64,000 nucleotides of DNA from Diatrype stigma (Eukaryota > Ascomycota > Sordariomycetes > Xylariales > Diatrypaceae), in contig JAKJXP020000061.1 in NCBI GenBank assembly GCA_022225965.2, positions 62,001 through 126,000 of the forward strand, given 5' to 3'. This document shows, one piece after another, positions 46,242 through 64,000 of this stretch (positions are counted from its first letter, which is position 1; every line of letters starts with the position of its first letter). The notes beneath the pieces were generated by a model. That model saw only the letters and a list, made by a program, of their open reading frames with translations. It ran no database searches and had not been told where the DNA came from. Made by a program: the position numbers and the translations under genes.

Positions 46242-47214
46242 ATGCGGCTCCTCCAAGCTTCGGTGTCGCTCGCATTTTTCGTGGCGGCGGGGGTGGAGTG
46301 CGTCAACTTCCCGTTCGAGTCCGATCAGCTCATGACTGCAGACGTCGGAAACTTCTCCGCGATCGCGTTTGGAGATCGATCAACCGTGGGGGCGGCGTAT
46401 GTCGGGCCAGCCTGCAAGGCATACCCGGGCGCTGCCGGATGGCCACTCGAGGACGAGTGGTCCCAGCTAAACAACTCGCTAGGAGGCACTCTCCTCAAGC
46501 CGGTTCCTGCGGCGGCGGCTTGCTACGCCGGGCCATTCGAGGACGAAGCCCGGTGCGATTTTCTGCTAAGGAACGCCAGCAGGACTCGCTTTTACCTCGA
46601 CAATCCGCTCACGGTGCTGACGGAGTGGCCGGAGGGAGACACCTGCTCTATAGCATCTTCTCAGACCGAGGGATCAAATTGCACGCAGGGCGGGTTTCCC
46701 GTCTATGTCGTGAATGCTACCACGGTCAAGCACGTACAGATAGCCGTGAATTTCGCCAGGAACAAAAATCTACGGCTAGTGATTAAGTGAGTCCTTATAT
46801 GTCCTCATGATAACTTGTGTCATAATTAAACTAGGATAATTTAACATGGATAACACATCTTACACCTCTTATAACGCGCGAGGGGTATGCGTTATAGCAC
46901 CATTGGACTAACATCTCAATCAAAAATCCAGGAACACAGGCCACGACTTTCTCGGGCGCTCGGTAGGCTTCGGAAGTCTGAGCATTTGGACGCACTGGTT
47001 GAAAGACTTCGAGTTCCTGCCCGAATACGGCATTGGAGAATACAATGGCATGGCAGCCCGGGTCAGTTCCGGCCTCGAGAGCTGGGAGATGTTTGCCCAT
47101 ATGGACCGCCACAACATGACACTGATAGTCGCCGGCCGCTATACCGTCGGAGCCTACGGGGGATGGATGGCGGGCGGCGGTCATTCTGCGCTAGGTTCGA
47201 AATATGGCCTTGGC
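46242..47214 (+). pseudogene. FAD-linked (BBE-type) oxidase, 5' half of a gene split by a transposon
   Basis: Exon 1 is 46242..46786 and exon 2 starts at 46932 (145-nt intron, GTGAGT...ATCCAG, splitting Lys182). The frame stays open to 47214, where the inserted element begins. The N-terminus is a signal peptide (MRLLQASVSLAFFVAAG), so the ancestor was secreted. His186 in KNTGHDFLGRS is the expected site of covalent FAD attachment. The second attachment site of bicovalent members (Cys before TVG) is Tyr here (AGRYTVGAYGGWMAGGGH). The flavin domain breaks off after SALGSKYGLG, and the continuation ADQPLF is found at 55780, in phase, 8.6 kb away. Read into the element, the frame hits a stop within three codons. 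Without the insert, the gene would encode about 627 aa. Now presumably non-functional. Confidence 0.88.
47207..47214 (+). repeat. Left target-site duplication
   Basis: GCCTTGGC, the last codons of the oxidase before the insertion. It is matched at 55772..55779 by GCCTTAGC, one G-to-A change apart. Confidence 0.8.
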
Positions 47215-47245
47215 TTATCTTAAAAACAAACGTTTTTCTGGGCCA

Positions 47246-47262
47246 GCTGCGTTACGCGCAGC
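47246..47262. repeat. Subterminal GC hairpin
   Basis: GCTGCG-TTACG-CGCAGC, a perfect six-base stem with a five-base loop, sits 31 bp inside the left end of the element. It is a conspicuous GC-rich structure in AT-rich surroundings and may be part of a transposase-binding end. Confidence 0.6.
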
Positions 47263-47370
47263 CCCATATCATTTAACCAATAATTCTATTAATAGATTTT
47301 AGCGGTAATTTTAATATAATTTAAACCATCCCGAGCATTTCCCGTATATATTAAAATACGTACCTATAAA

Positions 47371-50130
47371 ATGGCCCAAAAAAGACGTCTAAAACGACGA
47401 TCCAAAAAAGGGCTATATTAGGAAGAATTTTTAATATAAAAAAAATTTGTTCCTTTAATTATTATACGATTCCTTAATTACTACGGCCTCGATAAATATT
47501 CTAAATATATACTGAAAATTACAGTTCATAAAGCTTTTTAACGAGTTTAGTTTTATATTTTTGCGCCTAGAAACGTATAAATTCGTATGCGACAATTGAA
47601 TAAAGGTAACTAAAAAGAAAAAATTGCCGCCAGCGACCCCCCTTAAAGTTTCGGCAAAAAAATTACTATGCAATTGAAACTTTAAAAATCCATTTTTATA
47701 ATGCATCTTTAGCGACGAAAACCATTTAAAAAAAAACAGGAATTCGTTTTTATAAGCGTTTTTAATAGTTCTTATAAGTAGCCGATTTGCTGTTATTCGG
47801 AAATTATTTAGGGCTTTTATATAATTTGCTAATACGATTTTTTAATTAAGCCGATTATCGAAAGCTTTATAATTTCATTTTTAAAATATAAGTCGCATTT
47901 TTATACGCCAAATTTCCGATTTCTAAGAAAATCGAAAAGCAATACCATATTATTGCCTTCCAGCGGCCATAATCCGGCCCCAAACTTGGCCTAAATCAAG
48001 CAAAATAAACTCTTAGGTTCTTTAACGAAAAAGCAAGTCCGTATTGTAATTAATAAATTTAATAAAAGCCAAAGTTCCGCGGACGAAGCTAAAAAAATCT
48101 TTTTAAAGCGTTATAAATAAATCGTCGAATATACGGCGGATCGAATTAATATTCAGTAGGTCTTTATTACTAATATTATTCGAATAATTACCGGTATAAA
48201 AAAAACTAAAAATGGTTAAATTAAGGCTATTCGACGATTGGTATATTTTAAAAGCGATATTGTTTTTATCGTTATTATCGGTTACGGCAAAAATGCCGTA
48301 TTATAAGCCTTTATAGCCATTATTGAATTAATTATTATCCAAATCGTTTTATTAACGAAATTAAACGAAACTTAAATTGATTTTATTAAAAAAGAAATTC
48401 CGGGATTTACTTTTATATTCGTTAATTTAAATACGTTTTTTAAAATCAATTACGAAACGTAATATATCGTCGATATCCCGAATTAACCTTAAATAAAACC
48501 GCTTTATTTAAAAAAATATCCAAAACGCGAAATATTTCTACGTATTCCTAAGTCCCGAATAGCTTCTTTATTCAAAATTTAAGGCGGTTTTAAAAAGTTC
48601 CGAATTTCATAAATTTATTGGCTTATTTGTAATCGACGAATTTTACGTTATAAAAAAATGACGTACCTTTCGTAAAAACTTTACTTATTTATATACCGTA
48701 CGATCTTTTCTTTTAAAAAGCCTTTCTTAATTTGGTTATATAGCTACTTTAAATCGAAATAATTAAGAATATATTTTTTAATACGCCGAATTTAATACGG
48801 ACGTAAAAATTATTCGTATTTCCGTTAACCGATCCGAAATTTCCTTAATAATTCAACCTTTTTTTCGAAAATCTATTAGGGACTATAAACGACTAAAATT
48901 CCTTTTCGAAAACGCAAGTTCTTAAGTTATACGAGCCATTTCGAAAATAATTATTTATATAAATAACAAGTCCCAATTATTTACGATTCGTTTTTATTTC
49001 ATTAATTACTTAATATTAAAATATGGATTTTCTAAACCTATTATTCGGAAAATTATTATAAGATACGATATAAACGTTCGTTCGGTCGATAAAAACCGAA
49101 TTTTCGATTAATTCTTTTAAGAAAACAGTACCGGTAGGATTATGTTTGTTACGATTTTTTTCGAAATGGGCCTTAATATTTTTAATATTCGAAAAATCGT
49201 TTAGTTTAATCTATTTCCAAATACGAGCCTTTCGGATATTTGGTAACGCGTTAAACGTATAATAAAGAAACAAATAAGCCAAGGAATTACGTATATTTTT
49301 ATTCCGTATTAAACGTTCGATAATTTAAATACTTTAAAAAACGTATCGAAAACTTTTCGTTTTAAGCCTCGCCGTCGCCAGATATAAGTTTAATTAATAC
49401 AAACTCGATTAATATACGTTCTTCGAATTAATAATAATCTACGTAAAATAACGTTAACCAAAAAAAATAACGACGATAATATAATTAATTAAACAAACGA
49501 CGTTAATTAAATTAATAACCTAATTTCTTACGACTTTGCGGCAAAGTAACGTAACGATTTACGCCTTATTTTTTTCGAAGTTTTGCAAAATTTATTCGAA
49601 ATCGATAACAAAATGAAATAATCGAAACAAAACGAAGCTAATAAATCGAAATTAAATCCTGCCGTTTTTGCGTTTTTTAATTTAAGCTGTTTTAAAAAGT
49701 CGATTCTTAAATACCTTTAAGAACTTATTAACGATTCCAATCTTAAATATAAACGACCGATTAAAATAATCCATTATTGCAATGCTTATAATAACGATTT
49801 CGGTAAAATTCCGTCTTTCGAATTTCGACTTAAGGCCTTTTCGAATAAGCCGCAAACTGGTTCGTTTTCCGGCGTTACTTTAGTGCTTTTATCGATTTAA
49901 TGCAAAAATTAAGCCCAAAGCCTCGCTTTTAATGTCCGATACGACCTTATAAAAAAATTTTTCTTAAATTCGAAACTTTAATATACCATTGCTAAATAGT
50001 TTTCTTCGAAAAAATAATATTTGCCGTTTTTTAACGTTAACGGCTTTATTAAAAAAATACCCGAATTATTTATTTAAAAATATCTCGATAAACATGGCCC
50101 CGCCTTAATAAATTTCTGCATCCAATCGAC
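47371..50130 (+). pseudogene. SF2/RecQ-like DNA helicase remnant
   Basis: Conceptual translation, ignoring stops and at least one frame change near 48490-48540, shows helicase motifs in order. A pre-motif AIRRLVYFKSD is followed by a Walker A remnant IGYGKNAVL at 48277..48303. Then come FLSPE and the Walker B/DExH remnant VIDEFYVIKK around 48629. A motif III-like IATL follows near 48740. In the C-terminal domain, IIYINNKSQL, then an ATGGG-coded EMGLNI, and RIV-FNLFPNTSLSDIW-RVKRIIK (in parts; about 49190-49275) correspond to motifs IV, V and VI, with QRxGRxxR damaged. Downstream HYCNAYNNDFGKIPS resembles the Cys-rich tail of fungal RecQ-like proteins. A candidate start is ATGGCCCAA at 47371. 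Stops replace expected Gln or Trp. Dead by point mutation. Confidence 0.7.
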
Positions 50131-50654
50131 TTTTATTATTCGATAACGTTAAAAAACCAAAAAAAAAAAAATAAAACAAAAACGAAAAGCGAAAAAGCAA
50201 GTTATTTTTTTTTCTTTAGTTCCGGCAAGCCGTAAAGCTATAAATAAAAACGTATCGCCTTTTATTATCCGAATCCGCTAAATTTAATAATAACCTAAAA
50301 ATTAATATAAAGAATTAACGATTATTAAGAAAAATTAACCAATAAAGAAAATCAACGGTTTAATAAGGAAAATTAACGATTAATTAACGAATAATATCGA
50401 TATTACGTATTATATAAGTTTTATACGTAAATAAGGCTCTTTTAATAACATTATGTTAATCCCTTTTTTATTTAATTCTTATTGCAGCCAAAGAAAAAAT
50501 TTAAGTTATTTAAAACGTAAATAATAGCATCGCCCTTTTTTTTTTTCCCTTCGTCGTTTTTATTTCCCAAAGCAAATTTAATAAAAATACGTAAGCGTAT
50601 AAAATCGCCGCCGTTTTTTTTCCCTTTCTTCCCTTTTTTAACGATCTCGACGCC

Positions 50655-50815
50655 CTAGTTATTATCGCCGTTATCGTCGTCGTTATCGTTATTATTATTA
50701 TTCTCGTCGTTATCGTTATTATTGTTATTGTTATTATTGTTATTATTGCTATTGTTATTATTATTATTATTATCGTTATTATTATTATTATTATCGTCGT
50801 TATTGTCGTTATTCC
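50655..50815 (+). repeat. Degenerate trinucleotide repeat (TTA/TCG)
   Basis: A run of GTTATTA/ATTATTGTT/TCGTCG triplets in the central non-coding part of the element. CpG-containing triplets survive while others have become ATT, as expected of RIP on a former triplet array. Confidence 0.65.
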
Positions 50816-51579
50816 CTTCGTATTTTTAAATCCTCCGTAATATATGGAAACTTAAAAATAAGAACTTTTTTAATTTAACGCGGATTTTTTTATCGTAAGC
50901 CCTATATTTTATTTATATGCTTATCTTTATATATTAGCATTATTTTTGCTTATACCGATATATATTATAAAAATTACGTATTTATAAAAATCTTTAAGTC
51001 AATAACGACTTAAAACAAAAACTTACGTAATTCATAAATTATCGAAACGTTAATAAATAATTAACGACATTTTAAATAATTATTAACCGCAGCACTTTTT
51101 TTCTTGGTTGTTATATAAATAGCTAATATAAGCTTATCCAGTTATTTCAATACAAACGTTTCATAAATTTCGATTATTTCGGTAGCAAATATAGGACTGT
51201 CGAATAAGGCCCGAAATTTATAACAACGCTGTCTTAAAATTACGATTACGGCTAGTAATATTAAAGGAAAAATTAAAGTTTTTTCGTTTAAAGCTGCCGG
51301 CCTTATATTGCAAAAATCTTTAAACCGAAAGGTCCAGTAAAGAAATAAACGAAAAAGCAATTAACCGGATAATTTAATAACGGCGGACGACTTTATAAAT
51401 TGCCCGGATAACTTCTTATATTATTTCGGGAACTATATATTACCAATTAAATATATTATATATAGGCAAATTTAAATGGTTTTAATTATATACCTTAAGG
51501 TTTCGGTATAACGCCCGATTTCTTTAGCTTTTTGGCCGGGAACGATAAAGGCAAAGGCAAGAACGGAATTTCGTAAGAG

Positions 51580-51680
51580 TTTCGGAAAAACGGCGGTAAC
51601 GGCAACGGAAGCGGCGGAGGCGGCGGGGGCGGCATCGATGGCAATGGCGATAGCGATAGCGACGGCGACGACGACGGAAT
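51580..51680 (+). repeat. GC-rich GGC/GAC triplet island inside the AT-rich element
   Basis: About 100 bases of GGC, GGA, GAC and GAT triplets in DNA otherwise dominated by A and T. Most triplets lack CpA and TpG, so RIP would find few targets. The opposite strand reads as a Pro/Leu-rich open frame (51704..51495) that I do not regard as a gene. Confidence 0.6.
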
Positions 51681-51715
51681 TTCATACGGGTTTCGAAAAC
51701 CCAAAGGGCGAATAA

Positions 51716-51718
51716 TAA

Positions 51719-51756
<38 letters not shown>

Positions 51757-51870
51757 GTATTATTATTACTGCTGTTATTGTTATTATTATTATTATTATT
51801 ACTGTTATTGTTATTATTATTATTGCTATTATTATTATTATTATTGCTTTTATTGCTATTATTATTAAAT
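51716..51870 (+). repeat. ATA/TTA trinucleotide tract
   Basis: Twelve or more ATA triplets turning into TTA/TTG triplets, partly self-complementary, directly beside the GGC/GAC island. Confidence 0.75.
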
Positions 51871-51947
51871 AAATTCGGAATAAATTTATTGGTTATATTT
51901 TATATTAATATATTATAACATATTAATACGTAAATTTAAAATAAATT

Positions 51948-52565
51948 TATTAATTATAATATAATTTTTAAATTTATTTATATTAATATATTATAATATA
52001 TTAATATAAAATTTTAATTAATAAATTTATTTATACCGGTATATTATAATACATTAATATGAATTTCAATTAATAAATTTACTTATATCGATATATTATA
52101 ATATACTAACATAAATTTTAATTAATAAATTTATTTATATCGGTATATTATAACATATTAACATAAATTTTAATTAATAAATTTACTTATACCGGTATAT
52201 TATAATATATTAATATAAATTTTAATTAATAAATTTATTTATATCGATATATTATAATACATTAATATAAATTTTAATTAATAAATTTATTTATATTAAT
52301 ATATTATAATACATTATTATGGATTTTAATTAATAAATTTATTTATATCGGTATATTATAATATATTAATACGAAATATAAGTAACAAATTTATTTTGAA
52401 TATATTTATATCGATATATTATAATACATTAATACGAAATATAAGCAGCAAATTTATTTTGAATATATTTATATCGGTATATTATAATATACTAATACGA
52501 AATATAAGTAGCAGATTTATTTTGGATATATTTATATCGATATATTATAATATACTGGTACGAAT
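51948..52565 (+). repeat. 52-bp and 63-bp tandem repeats built on an AT palindrome
   Basis: About seven copies of a 52-bp unit (CGG/CGA marks at 52037, 52089, 52141 and 52193) pass into three copies of a related 63-bp unit (marks at 52349, 52412, 52475 and 52538). Each unit centres on a palindromic core with the word ATATTATAATAT. The copy at 51978..52009 is a perfect 32-bp palindrome. It lies between the 3' ends of the element's two genes. Confidence 0.85.
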
Positions 52566-52718
52566 TTATAGCATAATATATATACATTCGGCTAATATAA
52601 AAGCAAATAAATATTTAATTAACCTAATTAATTAACTTGCTATTATTATTAATGCTTATAACGCTTATTAGCCTTTTCCGAATAACCTTATCGTAAATCG
52701 TTAATTATAATTCGTTAA

Positions 52719-55444
52719 TTAAGCAAAAAAAAAATCCCTTAATTCGTAAAACCAAAAATCCTTAGCTTTAGTTTTATTAATTGCATCGAATAAGCGTTTA
52801 TTTTTATTATTCCAATCGATAATATTATCGTTAATTCCTTTCGTTACGTTAATGCTAAAAATAATACGTTAATTAGCCGCATTAATAAATTTAGATATAA
52901 TATCGTTAAAATCGGCAAGCTTTTAAAGCAAAAGCTATTAACCGCATTCGAAAATATTAGGAACATCGTAAATATCGTTATAAATATTTTGCCTTATTTA
53001 CGTAATACCATTTTTATACAGTTTATAAATATACGATATAATATCGATAAAAGCATTACCGAATTTATATATACTTTTGTTATAAATTACGCTAAAAATA
53101 CGCTTAACGGATTTACGGATGGTAACGAAATAATTACCATTTAAGGCCAAACGAAAGAACGTTAATTTGAAATCATGAATAAAGTTTTTGTTATATTTAA
53201 TATCGATGGTATAAACGGCGTTAATATGTTTAAGCATTAGGTCGATGGCTTTGTATTTGTTTCCGGCTATAATATAACGAATTAATTTTTTTTTAAAAAT
53301 GGCATTACGAATAGTTCCATCGTAATAAACGTCGGAATATAAAAGCTAAGCGAAATATAATATTTCCGGACCGTAATTAAATAATTTTCTTTTTTAAAAT
53401 ATAATAAGTAACTAAAAAATAATATTACGAAATAATCCAAAGTTTTCTTAACGAACGGCTTCGTAAATCGTTAGGAATATTTCGATATATTATATTAATC
53501 GGCATTAATTACGGAACTCGAAATCGATATAATCGTCATTAATACCGAAATACTTACCAGTTCAGCCTTTTTTCGTAAAAACCTTCGATTAAGTTTTTTT
53601 AAAAATAATATTAAGAAAGCCTTTATAAATAATAATAACTTCCTTAATGCCTTTAATAATAATTTAATCCTTAACGAAAACGCTTCGGATATATAAACCG
53701 TAAATCATAAACGTAAGGATTTTAATAATAAATCCATAAATTAAAAGGAAAACGGTTTAATAATATTTAAGATTTTTTTTATTAATATATTTTTCTCGTT
53801 AAAAAAAATCGATATCCGTTTTAATAATAGCGCTGCTTTTTTCTTTTTTTATATTCCAAAAATTACGGAATAACATTTCGATATAATTAAGTTCGACGTA
53901 AAAAAAAGCGGAAATAAGAAGCATCCATTTTTTCTGCTCCCAAAAATTACTAGCTTTTAATTAAAACTATTTAATACGGCAAATAAAAAAAGTCGTTTTT
54001 TGGTCGCTATATACCATTATAATATAAAATAATTAATAAATAATCGCTAAATAATAAATAAATACAATTTACAAATTAATCGATCGTCGAATTCTTTAAA
54101 TTCGAACCGGCGTTTTTAAAGTTTTTCGTAAAACTTATAAATACCTTTAACTATACCCTTATTTTCGAAAATAACGCCAAGTTAAAAATAAAGGCTTTTT
54201 TTATAATTAACGCATTAAATAGCAGAAAACTTAAAAAGCTTATTCTTTTCGTTAAAATAAATTAATTTCATAATCGAAAACTTAACAAAATACTTAAATA
54301 CTTTATTAAAAAACGGAAAACGAAAAAGTAAATACTTCAAAATCATGTTACGAATAAAAAACTGCTTAAAATTTAAGGATCTTTAAAAAAAGGAACCTTA
54401 AAATTCGAAGCAGCTAATTAAATAAAAAGTCGTAAAGTTAATTATTTATGCTTATTTGCCCTTTATAAGTTTTCGTATCTTATTTAAGAAATTAAAGTTA
54501 TCGTAAACGATTATGCCGATAAAATCGTAAGCCATACGTTTAATATTTTTTTTAACTTACTTGGTTATTTCGGAAAGCTTATTATTTAGGATAATATATG
54601 AAAACATAATACTTAAGCCAAATAATGTATTAATAATACGACGAAAAATGCCGTTAACGAATATATAAAAGCCCAAGACTATATGTAAAAATTTATTAAT
54701 ATTTCTTACATAGCTACGAAAAAGGAATGCAATAAGTAAGTAAATATAACCCTTATTATTTTCGTTATTAATTATTTCGACAACGTCTTTATAAGTATCG
54801 TTTTAATTACGTAATAATTAAATAAAAAAAATTACCATCGTAAGAGCTTTTTTTTTAAATATTAGCCAGCCCTGTTTAAAAATCTTTTATAACCATTCCG
54901 TATTACATATTTTTGCGATAATAATATTATTATTCGAAAGATCCTTATAAAGCTCGAAATCGCCAAACGGTAGCTTTTTAATAAAAAACTATATTTCGTA
55001 GCGAACAATACGAATATTAAAAAATCCAAGGATTGGTTTAATATCTGGATTAATATTAATTACAATTAAGCCTTAATTTACGAATATTTCCTAAATCTTT
55101 AAAAACGAAATAACATTTACCAATTGCCCCTTACGGGTAAGGTTTTTAATCCATTTTTTAAGGAACGTTTTGAAATTATACAGTTTCTTTTTATTATTTC
55201 CGGCATACCGAACGAATTAACGCAGTTTTTTTTATAAATTCGTAATTTCCGGTACGATTTCTTCGGAAAAAATCGTAAACTTATTAAATAAATCGTTATT
55301 CGAATTATTAGCTTTATTAGGACTGGATTCTTAATAAGATTGGAACTGTTATTGCGAACGTTATTAATTGGAAATCTCGGAAAGCTCCGAACTTAATACG
55401 TTAGTAATAAGCGAATTAATTAAATTTACGTTTAACGAATTCAT
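52719..55444 (-). pseudogene. DUF6589-like (transposase-like) protein remnant
   Basis: The minus-strand frame from ATG 55444 to TAA 52719 gives about 900 codons with many stops and a few frame changes. Recognisable blocks in order are EEIVPEITNL, IYLLIAFLFRSYVRNIN then LGFYIFVNGI, RMAYDFIGIIVYDNFNF (54488 region), VYSDQKTTFF (53991-54008), FNYGPEILYFA (about 53364), NKYKAIDLMLKHINAVYTID with the following HDFKLTFFRLAL (about 53140-53265), and KAKDFWFYELRDFF near the end. The order and spacing match what I know of DUF6589 proteins, which are abundant in repetitive fungal DNA. The Asp of YDN, the Asp of SDQ and the Glu of GPE could form an RNase H-type DDE triad; that is inference. Stops again replace Gln/Trp codons. 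Confidence 0.65.
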
Positions 55445-55771
55445 AACGCATTTTTTAATTAATTTTGGTTACCTAAAAAAAAGAATTGCACGAAAAAAAA
55501 AAGAAAATCTCCAAAAATCGAACGATACGTTTTTTAAATCAAATAAACAAGATTTAATAAAAAAAACCCTTTGTTAAAAAAAAACGTTATTGTTTTTTTG
55601 CTTTATTCCTTATTATAATCGAATCGCCGTCTTAAACCAGCTTTTCGAAAAATCCCACCACCTATAATCCTTTAATCCCATTGGTTAGAATTAAACGTAT
55701 GCATTAAAAAGCGTTTTATAGGCCAAAGAGTACATTTAAAACTCGAAAAGCGGGTCTGAGCTCTAAAATAA

Positions 55772-55779
55772 GCCTTAGC
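55772..55779 (+). repeat. Right target-site duplication (mutated copy)
   Basis: GCCTTAGC, the partner of 47207..47214. The base just before it (55771) is A where the oxidase codon would need G if the copy were nine bases long. Confidence 0.8.
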
Positions 55780-57155
55780 GCGGACCAGCCCCTTTTTATA
55801 AACGTTATGACTGCCAATGGCAGATTAATAACAGCCGATCCGAACCAGAACGCCGACCTCTTCTATGCGCTACGCGGAGGTAGAGGAAATATGTTCCAAT
55901 TATTCCTTTGCCTTTTGCCGTCTCTAGCTCAGCCCTCTCTGTTTTGCATGCTGATATCAGGTCGTGGCAGGCACTTACGGTGTCGTAACCTCCGCCATAA
56001 TAAAAGCATACCCTAGTATACAAGTTCTCGCCTCGTCTCTCTCCTTCTCAACCAGCAGCATATCACCGCTACCGGGGTCCAACATCAACGCCACCGAGAC
56101 GTTCTGGCGCGGCTTCGATCTGTACCACAAGTGGGGACTAGCCATCGTCGACAACGGGGGCACGGCCTACAGCTACGTGTCTTCAAGTGGTAGCGGCGTC
56201 TTCACCTTCCGGACCGACATCGAAGTGCCCGGCATGACGGAAGACGAGCTCTTCGATTTTGTGCAGCCCCTGTATGACGACCTGAACGCCATCGGCATCC
56301 GCGCGAACAATAGCCGGCCAGCCCCGGCTTCGAACTGGGGATCCGCTGGCGCCGCGGGGGATGGCACGGGCGACGCGCCCGGTAGCTCACGGTTCGCGAG
56401 CCGGTTGTTTCCGCGTGCGAACTTCGAAGAGCCTCTGTTGTTCGCCGCTACACAGGTAAGCCATATGGGACGGGAAATCCCCTTCATCTCCCTTCTACTT
56501 CTATTAGTTTTTTGAAATTCCACTTCGGAGTCTTCATTACAAGTCTGAAGATTAGGTGGCAAACTTGTTGCATATTATTTAGCCATAAGCCTATCTCAGC
56601 TTGGAGATTTTTCTTTTTCTTTTTTTTTTTTTTTTTTTGGTCTCATGAGACCCGAGACTTTCGCTGATCTTATGGCACGGCTGGCATATGCAGCGCGCTT
56701 TCCGCGAGTCCGTCGAGGCCGGCTACACGTTCCACGGGATCCACGTAGCCCCGACAGACGCAGTCGGCGGCTCGCCAGGAGGCGCCGACAACGCCGTCAG
56801 CCCGGCGTTCCGCGCCGCCGTGATGCACGCGGACCTGTTCGACAGGACGCGGCTGGCGGGGCTGTCGCCGGCCGCGTTCGACGCGGCGCACGCGTGCCTC
56901 GACGCCCAGATGCAGAAGTGGCGCGCCGCGTCCCCCGGGTCGGGCGCCTACTTCAATGAGGCCGACCTGCAGGAGCCCGACTGGCAAAGCGCTTTCTTCG
57001 GCGCCAAGTACGACGCGCTGCGGCAAATCAAGCGCGCCATAGACCCCTGGGGCTTGTTTTATGCGCCTGCTACGGTGGGCAGCGAGGACTGGGTTGTTGG
57101 GGTGGCGGATGGGCTGCCGAGCCAGAATGGGCCGCTTTGTAGGGCCTCTTTGTAG
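55780..57155 (+). pseudogene. FAD-linked (BBE-type) oxidase, 3' half of the split gene
   Basis: Continues 46242..47214 in phase. Remainder of exon 2 is 55780..55888 (ADQPLFINVMTANGRLITAD ... FYALRGGRG), followed by an 82-nt intron 55889..55970, exon 3 55971..56455, an intron GTAAGC...ATGCAG and exon 4 56694..57155. The 82-nt intron must be removed to keep frame. It ends in GGCAG but begins ATATGT where GTATGT is expected, so its donor looks mutated G to A. A weaker GT at 55880 is possible but would delete four residues. Exon 3 holds TYGVVTSAIIKAYP and the substrate domain, exon 4 the BBE C-terminal segment YFNEADLQEPDWQSAFFG ... DPWGLFYAPATVGSEDW. No premature stop is seen in these exons. Confidence 0.85.
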
Positions 57156-57816
57156 GGTGAGGGGAAGTAGAGGGAGGGAGGCTGGCTGGTTGGGGGGTTA
57201 TGGGAGCGGAAGGTGTGAAACCGCTACAGGTATTATGTAACCCATGAGATACCGGTCCAAGGATAGAAGGGCTTTCCAAATTCCAATACTACTCAGGGGT
57301 GTCCAGCGGTGCTCTTATCGGAGAATATAGAGGGCTATTGTATCTTTTCTGTCGTTGCGACACGCGACTCTCGAAGGCTGCTAGTCTCGCCTCTTACGTT
57401 CGATATTCTGAATATCGCATGTAACCATGACCATGCCTTATCGCTCAAGCAGTGGAACATTATTGTAGACCGTGGATCCGACTGAATTTGGTTCTAATAA
57501 ATATGTAGCCCCCCAGCCGGCTCACCCGTCCTCTTTCCTGAAAAGAAAATAACCAAAACAGGCAAACCCGATCAAAACCAAATAGAGACTCCAACTCTTC
57601 TATGAGACATAAATACCTGGTGCTAGGTGGCAGCTTCATTTTGCGTTCAACTCCCTAGAGCTACATTACCCCTTTACATCAACCTGCGACCCCTATGATA
57701 TAGTATCAGGTGTATCGTAAATCCCGTACTCCCTGCTAATTGCGTGGCCTCTATTTAGTCGGGTCGACGACACCATATAAAGCGAGCCGTGTTGCATATG
57801 ATAAAGTTCTGCGTGA
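57156..57816. other. Intergenic, oxidase 3' side
   Basis: This spacer lies between convergent genes. No gene supported; moderately AT-rich but without the RIP-like composition of the element. Confidence 0.55.
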
Positions 57817-59235
57817 TCAAGCAGTAGCCGGATGCCGAGATGGTCTTGCTAAGGCGGCGGTAGTAGCGTCGATGAGCCCGCCACCGCCGCGCCGCGCCGC
57901 ATCCACCATCGCGAAGCTAGCCCGCCCCTGCCGGACCTCCCAGTCTCCGCTCCCCACACCCCTCACACTCCTCTTCCTCTTCTTCTCCCAGATGTCCTCG
58001 TGGCCCTGGCCGCCGTTGAGCTGGAAGTGGCGGCACTTGTTGGGGTAGGGGGCCTGCTTCCACATCTTCTGGTCGCGGACCTCGTTGATGACGCCCTCGA
58101 TGGCGAAGTCGCCCGGGTCGGCCAGGGCCGTGACGAAGCGCATGTGCAGCCAGCCGGGGGCGCCGGAGGCCTGCTGGGCCTGCATGGCGTAGCACTCGAG
58201 GAAGTCGGCCCAGACGGCCCACAGCGCCTGCTGCATGCGGTAGCACCCGTCCGTCGGCGAGTCGCGGTACCGCGTCTTCCACCACGCCGGCGGCAGCTGC
58301 ACGATCCAGTACGAGTAGTCCTTCGTGTACCACCGCCCGCACACCGAGTCCGACGACAGCTCCGGCCGGTGCAGCAGGTCCGGGATCGGCGGCACCCACG
58401 GCGTCGGCGTCGGCGTGTCGTCCTTCGACGTCACCGTCACCGTCGTCGACGGCGACGGCGTCACCGTCACCACGTGCTTCCGCGTGCTGGTGATGCTGGG
58501 CGTGGGCGGGCCCGGGACCGTGGGGATTGTGCTCCAGCTGCGCGTGAAGGAGAAGGGGTTGCTGGTCACGGTCGTTGAGGGCGGCGGCGTGACCGTGACC
58601 ACGTGGGTCTGGGTGCTACTGATGCTTGGACTGACCGGACCCGGATTCATGGGGAGTATGGTTTCGCTGCCGTGGGTGGTGCTGGTTGTGCTGGTGGGGG
58701 CGGTGCTCCAGCTGCGGGTAAAGGACCACAGGATGCTGCTGCTGCTGCTGGCGGTGGTGCTGGTGGCGGTAGTGGGGAGGGTGCTCCAGCTGCGGGTGAA
58801 GGACCAGGGGAAGCTGGTGCCGGTACTGGTGCCGGCAACGGTAACGGTAGTTGAGGGCGGCGGCGTGACGGTGACCATATGTGTCTGGGTCCTACCGATG
58901 CTCGAAGCTGCCGCTGCCGGACCCGGGACCGTTGGGGTTGTGGCTCCCCAGCTGCGGGTGAAGGACCAGAGGACGCTGGTGCTGGTGCTGGTGGCGGTAG
59001 TAGGGCTTGCCGGAACTGGCTGTGTAGGTGCTATACCACTGGGGTGATCTACGGTGACCCAGTAAGTGGTAGTTACGCTGGTGGTGGTAGAAGAAGAAAT
59101 CATAGGTTCCTGACGAGGAAATATAGAATCGTGAGCAGCCCTGGATTCTTCGGCCGGGACGGAGCTGTGAAGGCGGGCCTGCGTTAGCCAGGGAAGGCTA
59201 GCCATAGCCATCAATAGGCCTTGTGTGGATGGCAT
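57817..59235 (-). CDS. Secreted Ser/Thr-rich repeat protein with Cys-containing C-terminal domain
   Basis: Not a family I recognise. It is a single exon. I choose the ATG at 59235 (MPSTQGLLMAMASLPWLTQA, a good signal peptide); an ATG four codons upstream (59247) would also work. About 472 aa. Residues 45-280 (numbered from the upstream Met) are a Ser/Thr/Pro-rich repeat region with four SFTRSW units (96-100, 150-154, 176-180, 234-238) alternating with TQTH(M/V)VTVTPPPSTTVT blocks, likely heavily O-glycosylated. Residues 285-420 form a compact, Trp-rich domain with four Cys (CGRWYTKDYSYWIVQLPPAW, DGCYRMQQALWAVWADFLEC, NKCRHFQLN), probably the functional part. A Lys/Arg cluster (KKRKRS) could be a Kex2-type cleavage site. 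No GPI signal. Could be a cell-wall protein or effector; function unknown. Confidence 0.7.
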   Translation of the reverse strand: MPSTQGLLMAMASLPWLTQARLHSSVPAEESRAAHDSIFPRQEPMISSSTTTSVTTTYWVTVDHPSGIAPTQPVPASPTTATSTSTSVLWSFTRSWGATTPTVPGPAAAASSIGRTQTHMVTVTPPPSTTVTVAGTSTGTSFPWSFTRSWSTLPTTATSTTASSSSSILWSFTRSWSTAPTSTTSTTHGSETILPMNPGPVSPSISSTQTHVVTVTPPPSTTVTSNPFSFTRSWSTIPTVPGPPTPSITSTRKHVVTVTPSPSTTVTVTSKDDTPTPTPWVPPIPDLLHRPELSSDSVCGRWYTKDYSYWIVQLPPAWWKTRYRDSPTDGCYRMQQALWAVWADFLECYAMQAQQASGAPGWLHMRFVTALADPGDFAIEGVINEVRDQKMWKQAPYPNKCRHFQLNGGQGHEDIWEKKRKRSVRGVGSGDWEVRQGRASFAMVDAARRGGGGLIDATTAALARPSRHPATA

Positions 59236-59247
59236 CGTGATGACCAT

Positions 59248-60641
59248 ATCGCTCCAGCAGTTACTATAGGGGATGTTACTTTAGTATCTCTTGAGCCAAA
59301 GTAGGTTGGGAAAATATTATAAAAGGTGGAAGGGGATTTCTCCGTTTGATGGGTTAGGCTTCTAAATATGCATACGATATATTGGGGACATGATACATTC
59401 TCTGACTGTGCTTTCTCCGATCGAATCTTCAGACCTAACGATTAGACGAATAGCGGCCCTGCTTTCTCATATAGTAGCTGAGGGTAGCAAGGCCGTAATG
59501 ATTTGGGCTAACATCTCATGTGACTATAGTGGCACTTAGACTTTCAATAGCCTTTCCTCTTCCTAAACGACGGGATGGTGAGTTAGTTTCGATGTCCCCT
59601 GCGCAATACTGTTGGCCTCACCAACAGAAAGAACGCGAAGTACTTATACTTGTTTTTCACCACTTATTCTGGCCACGGTATGAATGGGGGGCCTGTCCCG
59701 CTTGGAAAACTCGGCAACACGCCCTCTCCTTAGGACACGACACATTCATTAAGTCAGTTACGGATGGCTTCTTTCATTATACCCAAGGTTGCTAGAACCC
59801 GTGACTTAGACTAGACGTTGGAAGTATAAATAAAGTGCCATAGATCTGAAGCGTCCGCCCTGGCCGCTAAATATAAAGTTTAGCTTCCACTTCCACCATT
59901 GTCTCGGATGAACCGCGAATATTCTAAACTTAAGTTTTCTATGAAACTCAACTCTATCTAGTACTGCCCTGGGTTTGGCTTGAATATCTGAATGTGAGTG
60001 CGTGCGTGCGATGTGGCGTAGGTGTGAGGCACCAAATAAAGGGGCAGGCAGTGGCGTACTATATCATGATATAGTTAAAGATCGCCCCTGGCCCCTTTCA
60101 AGTTTCCGGCTTCGCATTTGCAATGTTTATTTTGTATTTTCACAGTGTGGCTTTTCGTTCGGAACCTCCATGTATGCGCGATAAGACATTTACTACTCCC
60201 GCCATAAAATCTTGATCGAGCATCTTGATCGTGTAACTGGCTTGTGAAAGAAGTCGTGGTCGGTGATGCGTATATAACTACAGTGCTTCGTCTGCTTCGT
60301 GTGGCAAGTACGGGTATTGTATTGCACAGTAAGAGTCGGGTACCGCACGGATCTCCGGCCCCTGGCTGACCAGTTCATCCAGTAATAACCCGCGACCAGT
60401 TAGCTTCAGGGCCTACAGTAGGGGTACTACAGTAGGTACCTAACAACTACAACATATGGCACCTCCTTCGCGAACCTCGTGTTGAATTGGAACAAACACA
60501 GTATCGCGCTCCGTACAATACGCATATGGCAATTGGTCAATCGAATCATCGTGACATCTAACCCAGGCCAGCTAGGTCCATTTCCAATATCTCCATCATA
60601 CAGCCAATAGCCAATTGCTAGGAGCCTTTTGTTCTCTCTCG
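59248..60641. other. Intergenic (1.4 kb)
   Basis: No gene supported. The 91-codon frame at 59520..59795 shows no family features. The last part is presumably the leader of the phospholipase D-like gene. Confidence 0.55.
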
Positions 60642-62144
60642 ATGGACTCCCTTTCTCATTTCAAAGTGCCATGGAAGGCTAGCTTGACAGACCGCTCCGA
60701 AGAGCAGACTGGGGACTTTCCAGACTACCATGTCGCCGACCCCGAGTCTCTCGTCTGCATGTCCCGCCCTGAATCATTCGAGATAGGTACTGGAGCATCC
60801 ATCTATACGCGCTCTCTGCTTCCTGCCATACGGGAGGCCAAGCGCGAAGTGATCCTCGTTACGTGTTTCTGGGCTCCCTCCTCTACGCTGAGTGCGTTGA
60901 GTGAAACCTTGGAGTGGCTTGCCGAGGAGCGCGCTGAACAGGTTCGTGATTCGGTCGCGACAGGGTCGCCGGATGCAGAGGAGCTTCCGCTCTTGCGGAT
61001 ACGGCTATGCTTCTCATCTAGATCGCTCTTCCAGAAGCTCTTTCACACGACTTCGAGGGCTGGCTATATCTATCCGCCGGAATCCTGGCCGACCAAGCTA
61101 GGCTTACCATCCCCGGAAGTCTTGAAAGCAGGCCGCATTGACCTCCGGGTGAAAAGCTTGTTCTTTTTCCCATTCAGTGTTATGCACCCGAAGTTCCTGA
61201 TAATTGATCGTCGTAAAGCCTTTCTGCCTAGCTGCAATGTCAGCTGGGAACCATGGCTAGAGGGTTGTGTCGAGGTCACGGGGGATGTAGTAGGCCGGAT
61301 ACTACAGTTCTATCGGAATGTATGGGATGATGATATGAAAGATATCGTGATCGACCAAGATACTTACAACACCAACGCCATAGGACAGGTGTCTTCAGTA
61401 CCTGGTAGGATCGGCTTGACTTCTTACCAAAGCCCCGCTACGTTATTTAGACAGTTAAGCGTGGGCGCGATCCCGACAGTGCTACTGCCTTCTTCGCATC
61501 ACCAGAACCCTCAATTTCGTCCATTCCCGTGGCAGCTCCCAGCACCACCTCCAGCAACTCCCCTTAACCATGGCATATTACGACTTCTAGACATGTCGCA
61601 AAACACAATATACATGCAGACGCCGAACCTAACCTCGTCCGCTGTCGTTGATGCGCTCGTAAACGCCCTTCAGAGGGGAGTCGACACAACTATCGTAACT
61701 GGCAAAGGCATGATGTTGCTGGAACAAATCGTTACAGCCGGAACGACGACATCAGTATGTCTGAGATCCCTTATGCGGAGATACACCAAGATGCAAGCCC
61801 GTATCTCGCCCACCAATGCGGGAGACCCAGTGGCGACGGCCGCCGATTTGGAGGCGCAGGATTCGCGCCTAGGCAAATTGAAGATATCCTATTTTCGCCC
61901 TGCGCCAGGAGATCCAGCCAAGCGGCCACTAGAGGAACCGGTGCAATCGCATCTCAAACTGACGATTGTCGATGGTCAATACACTGTCCTTGGTTCTGGC
62001 AACATGGACCGGGCAAGTTGGTTCACGAGCCAGGAATTGGGCATCATGTTTCAATCGGCTGAGTTTGCTACATCTGTGAGCAGCAGCGTGTCTGAAGTCC
62101 TGAGCAACAGGTTGGAACCAGTCTTTGATTCGGAACTAGCATAG
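60642..62144 (+). CDS. Phospholipase D-like protein with two HKD motifs
   Basis: Single exon, 500 aa. The first ATG is 60642 (MDSLSHFKVPWKAS); the open frame before it starts at TTG only. The superfamily cleaves or transfers phosphodiester bonds through two HxKxxxxD motifs. The first is HPKFLIID (His codon at 61185), followed by SCNVSWEPWLEG. The second is HLKLTIVD (His codon at 61950), followed by LGSGNMDRASW. Both have the full His, Lys and Asp set, so activity is likely. There is no signal peptide or PX/PH domain, unlike large eukaryotic PLD1. The short two-domain form resembles fungal and bacterial PLD-like or cardiolipin-synthase-like proteins. Substrate cannot be told. Confidence 0.9.
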   Translation: MDSLSHFKVPWKASLTDRSEEQTGDFPDYHVADPESLVCMSRPESFEIGTGASIYTRSLLPAIREAKREVILVTCFWAPSSTLSALSETLEWLAEERAEQVRDSVATGSPDAEELPLLRIRLCFSSRSLFQKLFHTTSRAGYIYPPESWPTKLGLPSPEVLKAGRIDLRVKSLFFFPFSVMHPKFLIIDRRKAFLPSCNVSWEPWLEGCVEVTGDVVGRILQFYRNVWDDDMKDIVIDQDTYNTNAIGQVSSVPGRIGLTSYQSPATLFRQLSVGAIPTVLLPSSHHQNPQFRPFPWQLPAPPPATPLNHGILRLLDMSQNTIYMQTPNLTSSAVVDALVNALQRGVDTTIVTGKGMMLLEQIVTAGTTTSVCLRSLMRRYTKMQARISPTNAGDPVATAADLEAQDSRLGKLKISYFRPAPGDPAKRPLEEPVQSHLKLTIVDGQYTVLGSGNMDRASWFTSQELGIMFQSAEFATSVSSSVSEVLSNRLEPVFDSELA

Positions 62145-63551
62145 AGTTTACTTTTGACATTACTGTGCCTCTTGGGGCCACACATTACCTACGAATAACT
62201 ACCCACGCAGGATCATGGGAACTGCTGGTGGATGATGGGTCCGCCACACTCCAGCGTCGGCCCGAGGCAAGTTCGGGGTCCCGCGTAATGCATGTGCTCA
62301 TCCCGATTGAAGGCCTTGTCCACACACAACGTAACAGCTATAGGGTCCCTCTGTCTCTCACTTTATTCACGCATTGTCATACGCCACTTCTTGGTAAATG
62401 TAACATCACTTTACGAAATCGTTGGAATAAGCACGGTGTACCCGACGTTGCCTGTCGATACCAAGCGCAGGCATTGCCTATATGGGACGTGGTCATGTAA
62501 GGTTTATTATCGAAAGATCATTATCGAAAGAACCAACATCGCTATTGCGTTCGGTAGTCCTTTCGAAAGTGGCTAGGAGCAGGAGTCCAGGGCCAAGGAG
62601 CGAGCTTGGTTATACAGTGGTTATACTACGCATGTTCTGAGTGGGGGATTCTTCCCATCTAGCCCACGTAGCCAAGCACCCCAGCACTGATTAGGCTTAC
62701 TGAGGCTTCATCCCACTCCGGATTTCACCTATCGCAGTAGCGCATTCGATCCGTCTTCGTCCACTGGCGCCGCCGTTCTCCCACCTCCGTCTTCTAACAC
62801 CCCACGCGACATCTTTCCCATTAACCTGGGGCTTAGGCACGGGGTCTCGTTACATAGTAGTTATCCTTGGGTGTCAAGCCTAGCCTTCCGAAAGGCCTAT
62901 AGACCTATGGACACAGTCTGTCCTGCATGCTCTAGACTAATGGCTTGTAGAATAGCTTGCCAATGGAGGGGAATGTGTCTCGAACATACCTTTTGTTCCA
63001 TTGTCATGCCAGGCTGCCAATTGCCAAGTCTAGCATAGGTAACTTCTCACCGGAATGGAGCCATGGCATGCATCATACCTTGCCCCGGCCTCGCTAATAG
63101 CAAGTTTCTGTGGCCTGAGAGTGTAACCCAATAGAGCCAGGATGTCGGGCGATCGAAGAGGCTGGTACTGGTACCAGCTGCATGGCCGATGTGACGGTCC
63201 CAGGATGCCGGGTTCACAAATAAATCTGTGCCTTCTCACAGGACCCTGAGGTTTCTCTCGTTCCTTTTCCCGGTGAATTCACCTGACCATTGGCATTGAG
63301 CGGACGGCTTATTTGTACCCGTTACATTGACCGAGTCCACCTAGGATTCGAATAGGAAGCCTTCACTACTAAGCGTGGTTCTGTCTATCATTCTACTCCA
63401 TGGAATTCGTGGCCGAGTTCTTTTCCCTCCTTCTCAAAGCACTCTTCGGTAAGACAGCAGCCATCCGCCGCTTCAGGTCTGCGGATTCCCGCTGAGAACC
63501 TACCGAAACATTCAACGAACCGAGCAAACACGACCAAGTGGAACGCCAAAG
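62145..63551. other. Intergenic, permease upstream region
   Basis: 1.4 kb with no gene supported. Short frames at 62165..62576 and 63030..63588 lack conserved features. A TTATCGAAAGA direct repeat is seen at 62507-62531. Confidence 0.55.
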
Positions 63552-64000
63552 ATGGTAGCATCAGGGATCGATTATTCGATCGACTCACCTCCGGTGTACG
63601 GGAACGGCGGACCGGGCCGCGATGCTGAAAAGAATGTTGTCGACAAAGGTGGCCAACCGGCCAGCCTCGCTTCAGTCGAAGTCGGAGCCGGCACTTCGGT
63701 CCACCGGACGTTGAGAGCCCGCCATATCCAGTTAATCGGTATCGGCGGTACCATCGGCACGGCGCTCTACGTGCAGATCGGCCGGGGGCTGATGCAGGGA
63801 GGACCCGCTAGTCTGTTCATCGCCTTTTCTTTCTGGTGCACCGTCATCCTCTCCCTCACGGTGTGCTTAGCCGAGATGGTTACCTACCTGCCCATCTCGT
63901 CGCCGTTCATCCGCTTTGCCGGCCGCTACGTCGACGAGGCCTTCGGCTTTATGACGGGCTGGAACTTCTTCGTCTTCGAGGCGGCCATGGTCCCATTCGA
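63552..64000 (+). CDS. Amino acid permease (AAT/APC family), 5' end only
   Basis: The frame is open from ATG 63552 to the window end, giving 149 codons. A hydrophilic cytosolic N-terminus of about 55 residues is followed by the diagnostic RTLRARHIQLIGIGGTIGTA motif, membrane segment 1 (containing GIGGTIGTALYVQIGRGLM), segment 2 (SLFIAFSFWCTVILSLTVC), then LAEMVTYLPISSPFIRFAGR and DEAFGFMTGWNFFVFEAAMV at the start of segment 3. These are typical of fungal plasma-membrane amino acid/H+ symporters related to Gap1 and Agp2. Full members have 12 segments and about 550 aa, so roughly three quarters lies outside. No introns so far. Substrate is not predictable. Confidence 0.9.
   Translation, partial: MVASGIDYSIDSPPVYGNGGPGRDAEKNVVDKGGQPASLASVEVGAGTSVHRTLRARHIQLIGIGGTIGTALYVQIGRGLMQGGPASLFIAFSFWCTVILSLTVCLAEMVTYLPISSPFIRFAGRYVDEAFGFMTGWNFFVFEAAMVPF

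Follow-up and report, generated by a model that had tools for sequence, protein, structure and literature searches.

We analyzed a 64,000-nucleotide stretch of the Diatrype stigma (Xylariales) genome, here called the window, and found that the block at positions 47215-55771, about 8.6 kb in length, is one mobile element. This single unit carries a gene for a RecQ-type superfamily 2 (SF2) helicase and a gene for a protein of the family DUF6589, is flanked by 8-bp target site duplications, and has been altered by repeat-induced point mutation (RIP). We consider it likely, with a probability of roughly 0.85, that the element is a cut-and-paste transposon in which the DUF6589 protein is a DDE transposase and the RecQ helicase is an accessory factor; we infer both the catalytic role of the former and the role of the latter. 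In such a scheme, the DUF6589 transposase would bind the TTATCTCAGA ends and then cut, the cut ends would be joined to a target opened with an 8-nucleotide stagger, and the helicase would probably unwind DNA at the ends or in the joined intermediate, or steer repair.

Both genes lie between one pair of ends

A preliminary description of the window had proposed an AT-rich block with an 8-bp duplication, short inverted ends, and two convergent dead genes around a repeat array, all belonging to a single transposon, and each of these points is borne out. The G+C content is 0.255 within the block versus 0.543 in the remainder of the window (positions 1-47000 and 56001-64000). Comparison of the flanks places the duplication GCCTTGGC (47207-47214) to the left of 47215 and GCCTTAGC (55772-55779) to the right of 55771; the two are identical at seven of eight positions and differ by one transition, and perfect duplications are present at sister copies. 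The ends of the copies define the terminal inverted repeats, which are TTATCTTAAA at the 5' end (47215-47224, plus strand) and TTATTTTAGA at the 3' end (55762-55771, read on the minus strand), while a copy elsewhere in the genome, C40, has TTATCTCAGA at either end.

Between these ends, the helicase gene (47947-50284, plus strand, with a predicted intron at about 48445-48496) and the DUF6589 gene (52719-55444, minus strand, with an intron at about 54017-54072) converge on tandem repeats of 52 bp and 63 bp (51944-52554). Both genes are dead through RIP, both introns were mapped from C40, and C40 has the same layout with a comparable array. With stops read through, the profile search that identifies the predicted transposase gene recognizes DUF6589 at an E value of 6e-20 in the window copy; in C40, the value is 2e-60. 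The Helicase_C match in the window copy (E value of 6e-4, 20.4 bits) lies under the Pfam cut-off of 23.5, and in C40 the helicase is clear (DEAD at 4e-12, Helicase_C at 8e-12).

Our search of the D. stigma genome gave 132 matches, many of them in simple repeats, and 40 of 89 candidates were scored. Twelve copies, including the window copy, have two ends, with the one-ended pieces C57, C62, C202, and C34 left out of this count; eight fall in a first subfamily, three in a second, and one in a third. All 12 have helicase and DUF6589 sequence between the same ends, and they show no hint that either gene has ends of its own. The eight first-subfamily copies (the window copy, C61b, C66, C20, C37, C40, C22, and C137) match end to end, with the helicase half first and the DUF6589 half last. 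Genome-wide, 12 Pfam matches to DUF6589 resolve into 10 loci, each of them a two-ended copy with a helicase. The other two copies, C137 and C46, have DNA matches to the DUF6589 half, which in C46, the only member of the third subfamily, amount to one short match of 277 bases. A close helicase is found at 13 loci, namely C57 and all 12 copies with two ends. Another three helicase matches in the genome have 26-28% identity, contain no stops, and resemble ordinary RecQ-type genes. We also observed extra DNA in C22 (about 6 kb), C137 (about 10 kb), and C54 (about 15 kb), and C46 is interrupted by a 1.4-kb repeat (G000:C46 331566-332994) that is present at least 30 more times in the genome.

The flanking duplication is 8 bp long in 11 of the 12 copies, perfect in eight and with one transition in three. 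In the first subfamily, where six are perfect and two have one transition, 8 bp alone fits, and lengths of 7, 9, and 10 fit none of the eight copies. These duplications are not due to chance, because mismatched left and right flanks share at most five of eight positions (56 pairings), whereas true pairs share seven or eight. The second subfamily (C19, C54, and C30) has the 5' end of the first and a different 3' end; its duplications are CTGTCGGG on both sides of C19, CTTGCTTG on both sides of C54, and CCTTATCT/CCTTATTT at C30. C46 has the ends TTATTTCAGAATC... and ...GTTCTGAGATAA and the flanks ATCTGAAAC and ATCTGAAAT, to which 8 bp does not fit and a 9-bp duplication fits at eight of nine positions. 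In all eight first-subfamily copies, the duplication begins with a purine and ends with C; a strict target preference for C at position 8 was considered and dropped, as the three copies of the second subfamily show G, T, and G at that position.

One copy escaped RIP

The C40 copy, 8816 bp in length, has a G+C content of 0.463 and RIP indices close to the window background, while the seven other first-subfamily copies range from 0.248 to 0.273, inserts included. C40 has thus escaped RIP, and the window copy is a RIP-killed one: C-to-T or G-to-A changes make up 816 of its 926 differences from C40 in the helicase half and 734 of 824 in the DUF6589 half. Across five copies (the window copy, C61b, C66, C20, and C37), such changes account for 87-99% of the differences from C40. 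In the DUF6589 half, C20 differs from C40 at 704 positions and C37 at 756, and since only five differences in each are of another type, C20 and C37 probably came from nearly one source shortly before the RIP mutations, from which we infer recent copying of the element.

The spectrum of RIP in these five copies, measured against C40 (L029), is broad, with 0.63-0.74 of CpA sites and 0.48-0.63 of CpT sites changed, so that CpT is nearly as mutated as CpA; CpC (0.33-0.46) and CpG (0.09-0.16) are less affected. RIP in Neurospora prefers CpA, and the D. stigma spectrum differs from it in CpT.

The DUF6589 protein as a putative DDE transposase

The DUF6589 gene of C40 is intact and encodes 893 amino acids, with one predicted intron of 56 nucleotides (GTAAGT...TTACAG); its product is identical to the deposited protein SLS62_005740. 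A protein search found 16 relatives and an alignment-based search found 25, each having scored about 8000 candidates with shared short exact words, a filter that distant relatives may escape. All relatives with a species name are from filamentous ascomycetes. Pattern matches numbered 17 in viral contigs and 41 in genomes of bacteria and archaea, and none of them was confirmed as a relative.

Three conserved acidic residues, D319, D466, and E724, could form the catalytic triad of a DDE enzyme, in which such residues sit in an RNase H-like core, and the predicted fold is of low confidence near D319 and E724. A first structure model (893 amino acids, 16 sequences) reached a predicted local distance difference test (pLDDT) score of 56 and gave no useful match; a weak fold match ranks the P-element transposase first and Hermes third. 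The only sequence match to a solved structure, with an E value of 2.2, was treated as chance. The protein has no Pfam match to P element or hAT transposases, none of the 25 family members matches the Pfam KDZ family, and two DUF6589 proteins gave no NCBIfam match. A literature search on DUF6589 and DUF3716, a domain discussed below, found no paper within a limited collection.

A RecQ-type helicase and a possible third gene

The helicase is of the RecQ type, as its relatives contain RecQ motif 0 (R.GQ..AV) together with SF2 motifs I-VI, motif II being DELH. The full set of motifs 0-VI is present in two of six relatives checked (P0018 and P0019), while P0017, P0020, P0025, and P0026 as deposited lack at least one. 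RecQ_Zn_bind matches only beneath its cut-off, as does an NCBIfam RecQ subfamily in two helicases, and the nearest solved relatives are WRN and then bacterial RecQ. Among the best 120 of 227 relatives, the closest (P0017-P0033) are fungal or without a species name, and the others are mostly bacterial or unnamed RecQ proteins, plus one WRN-like shrimp protein. The C40 helicase gene has one predicted intron of 49 nucleotides and two stops; its deposited model, P0017, is named "transcriptional repressor general negative regulator of transcription subunit 4," apparently a wrong automatic annotation.

Between its two genes, C40 has an open frame of 110 amino acids with a DUF3716 domain at an E value of 9e-8, above the cut-off. 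The homologous stretch of the window copy (51092-51232, minus strand) is unrecognized by Pfam, no such domain is recognized in C30, and 10 of the 11 DUF3716 matches in the genome lie at other places, so we regard this frame as a possible third gene only.

The gene pair in other fungi

The two genes are tied together in D. stigma, Lasiosphaeria ovina, Achaetomium macrosporum, and a JGI contig, with the linkage outside D. stigma being deduced from an equal length of the longest contig (645570 for L. ovina, 14770 for A. macrosporum, and 6123 for the JGI contig) together with the same kind of source. These paired sources are four of the 16 DUF6589 relatives in the first search, and none of the nine added by the second. 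Across them, DUF6589 proteins are 47-72% identical and helicases 44-59%, the highest values for both genes (72% and 59%) being those between L. ovina and A. macrosporum.

Other features of the element and its insertion site

Just inside the 5' end lies a G+C-rich subterminal hairpin (47239-47266, plus strand), and similar sequence, judged by eye, is present in other copies. Its DNA folding z score is -3.3 in the window copy and -3.5 in C40, compared with 0.8 and -0.2 at the respective 3' ends. A TTA-type microsatellite (50670-50813) lies past the helicase gene and an AAT/TTA microsatellite lies at 51711-51867; like the tandem array and the target site duplications, they have no strand assigned. 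The central repeat region of C40 (L029 5104-6073) contains 14 near-copies of the palindrome GTGTGTTATAACACAC, each with at most three mismatches. Thirteen have a spacing of 52 or 63 bp, and the palindromes are a possible protein-binding array or terminator.

The window copy sits in an exon of a gene for a flavin adenine dinucleotide (FAD)-linked, berberine-bridge-type oxidase (46242-57155), which it disrupts. FAD_binding_4 is found to the left (E value of 5e-4, under the cut-off) and BBE to the right (E value of 3e-11), and the joined flanks restore the oxidase frame (...SKYGLG-ADQPLF...).

Alternative readings and relation to known systems

A reading that refines the cut-and-paste proposal, and does not exclude it, is that the element belongs to the AcademH lineage, with DUF6589 as the Academ transposase and the helicase as that of AcademH; we lean slightly toward it. 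According to later papers that cite its description, AcademH (Kojima 2020) is a helicase-encoding lineage of animals and fungi with 9- or 10-bp duplications, whose length is thought to be tied to the encoded enzyme (PMC10045372), and it occurs at low copy number in Basidiomycota, Ascomycota, and Mucoromycota (PMC10799480). By these descriptions, the D. stigma element resembles AcademH in having an SF2 helicase beside its putative transposase gene, and the 9-bp duplication of C46 falls inside the AcademH range. In contrast, 8 bp is found in the 11 other copies, and lengths of 9 and 10, counted in eight of them, fit none. An occurrence of DUF6589 proteins in corals and molluscs as well would speak for Academ. 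Whether or not DUF6589 is the Academ transposase decides between the AcademH lineage and a new group. A more tentative proposal is that DUF6589 is a DDE superfamily of its own, distinct from Academ, in which a RecQ partner is obligatory and the duplications are 8 bp long, some lineages also having DUF3716 as a third gene and an array of palindromes at the center.

A passenger role for the helicase, acquired in a single ancestral capture and contributing nothing to a transposition carried out by DUF6589, is rather unlikely. Such a history would agree with the two genes being separate, convergent, and separately spliced, with the two stops in the C40 helicase beside an open DUF6589 frame, and with the 12 of 16 DUF6589 relatives that have no helicase tied to them. 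Nevertheless, all three subfamilies in the D. stigma genome have retained the pair, which is also deduced for three other sources, and all of motifs 0-VI persist in two of the six helicase relatives, at least one being absent from each of the other four deposited models. A nesting of two elements, one with the helicase and the other with DUF6589, as the repeat array splitting the convergent genes might suggest, is rejected as highly improbable, since in 12 copies one common pair of ends surrounds both halves, no internal ends or duplications were seen, and all 10 DUF6589 loci are accompanied by a helicase.

The element suggests a function for DUF6589, a protein family so far without an assigned one, and C40 provides an intact natural DUF6589 gene with defined transposon ends. 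The contribution of a helicase to cut-and-paste transposition would thereby become testable with two components, and should the 8-bp and 9-bp copies be one family, they bear on whether accessory enzymes influence duplication length.

Helitrons are not known to have target duplications or inverted ends, and as the D. stigma element has both, this group was rejected. The P element duplicates 8 bp, and the D. stigma element resembles it and hAT elements (Hermes) in this length, the fold match to both being weak; neither group is known to carry a helicase gene, in contrast to the element described here. The hAT duplication is "usually" 8 bp, and Zisupton and Dileera (KDZ), which occur in fungi, share the 8-bp length, with no RecQ helicase mentioned for them (PMC12730594); the D. 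stigma family has such a helicase and lacks a KDZ Pfam match. Telomere-linked fungal RecQ helicases share a location in AT-rich repeats (PMC4522978), but the D. stigma element has inverted ends and target site duplications, and its window copy sits in an oxidase gene.

The preliminary description named no formal transposon group defined by this gene pair and layout, and the absence of such a group is doubtful, as AcademH (animals and fungi) and KolobokH (fungi), which pair a transposase with a helicase, have already been named. KolobokH elements are confined to fungi and have a RecQ helicase downstream of the transposase domain, Kolobok duplications are TTAA, and in the red-alga Kolobok-1_CCri the complementary strand encodes RecQ (PMC9587614). 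The D. stigma element shares with these a RecQ helicase and a putative DDE transposase, with RecQ on the opposite strand as in Kolobok-1_CCri, and differs from KolobokH in its variable 8-bp duplications and its separate, convergent helicase gene. It probably works like AcademH and KolobokH. Of the suggestion that it represents an undescribed class, the general kind, transposase plus helicase, was already known, and because a class as similar as AcademH exists, such a class is possible only; the 8-bp duplication and the assignment of DUF6589 may be what is new.
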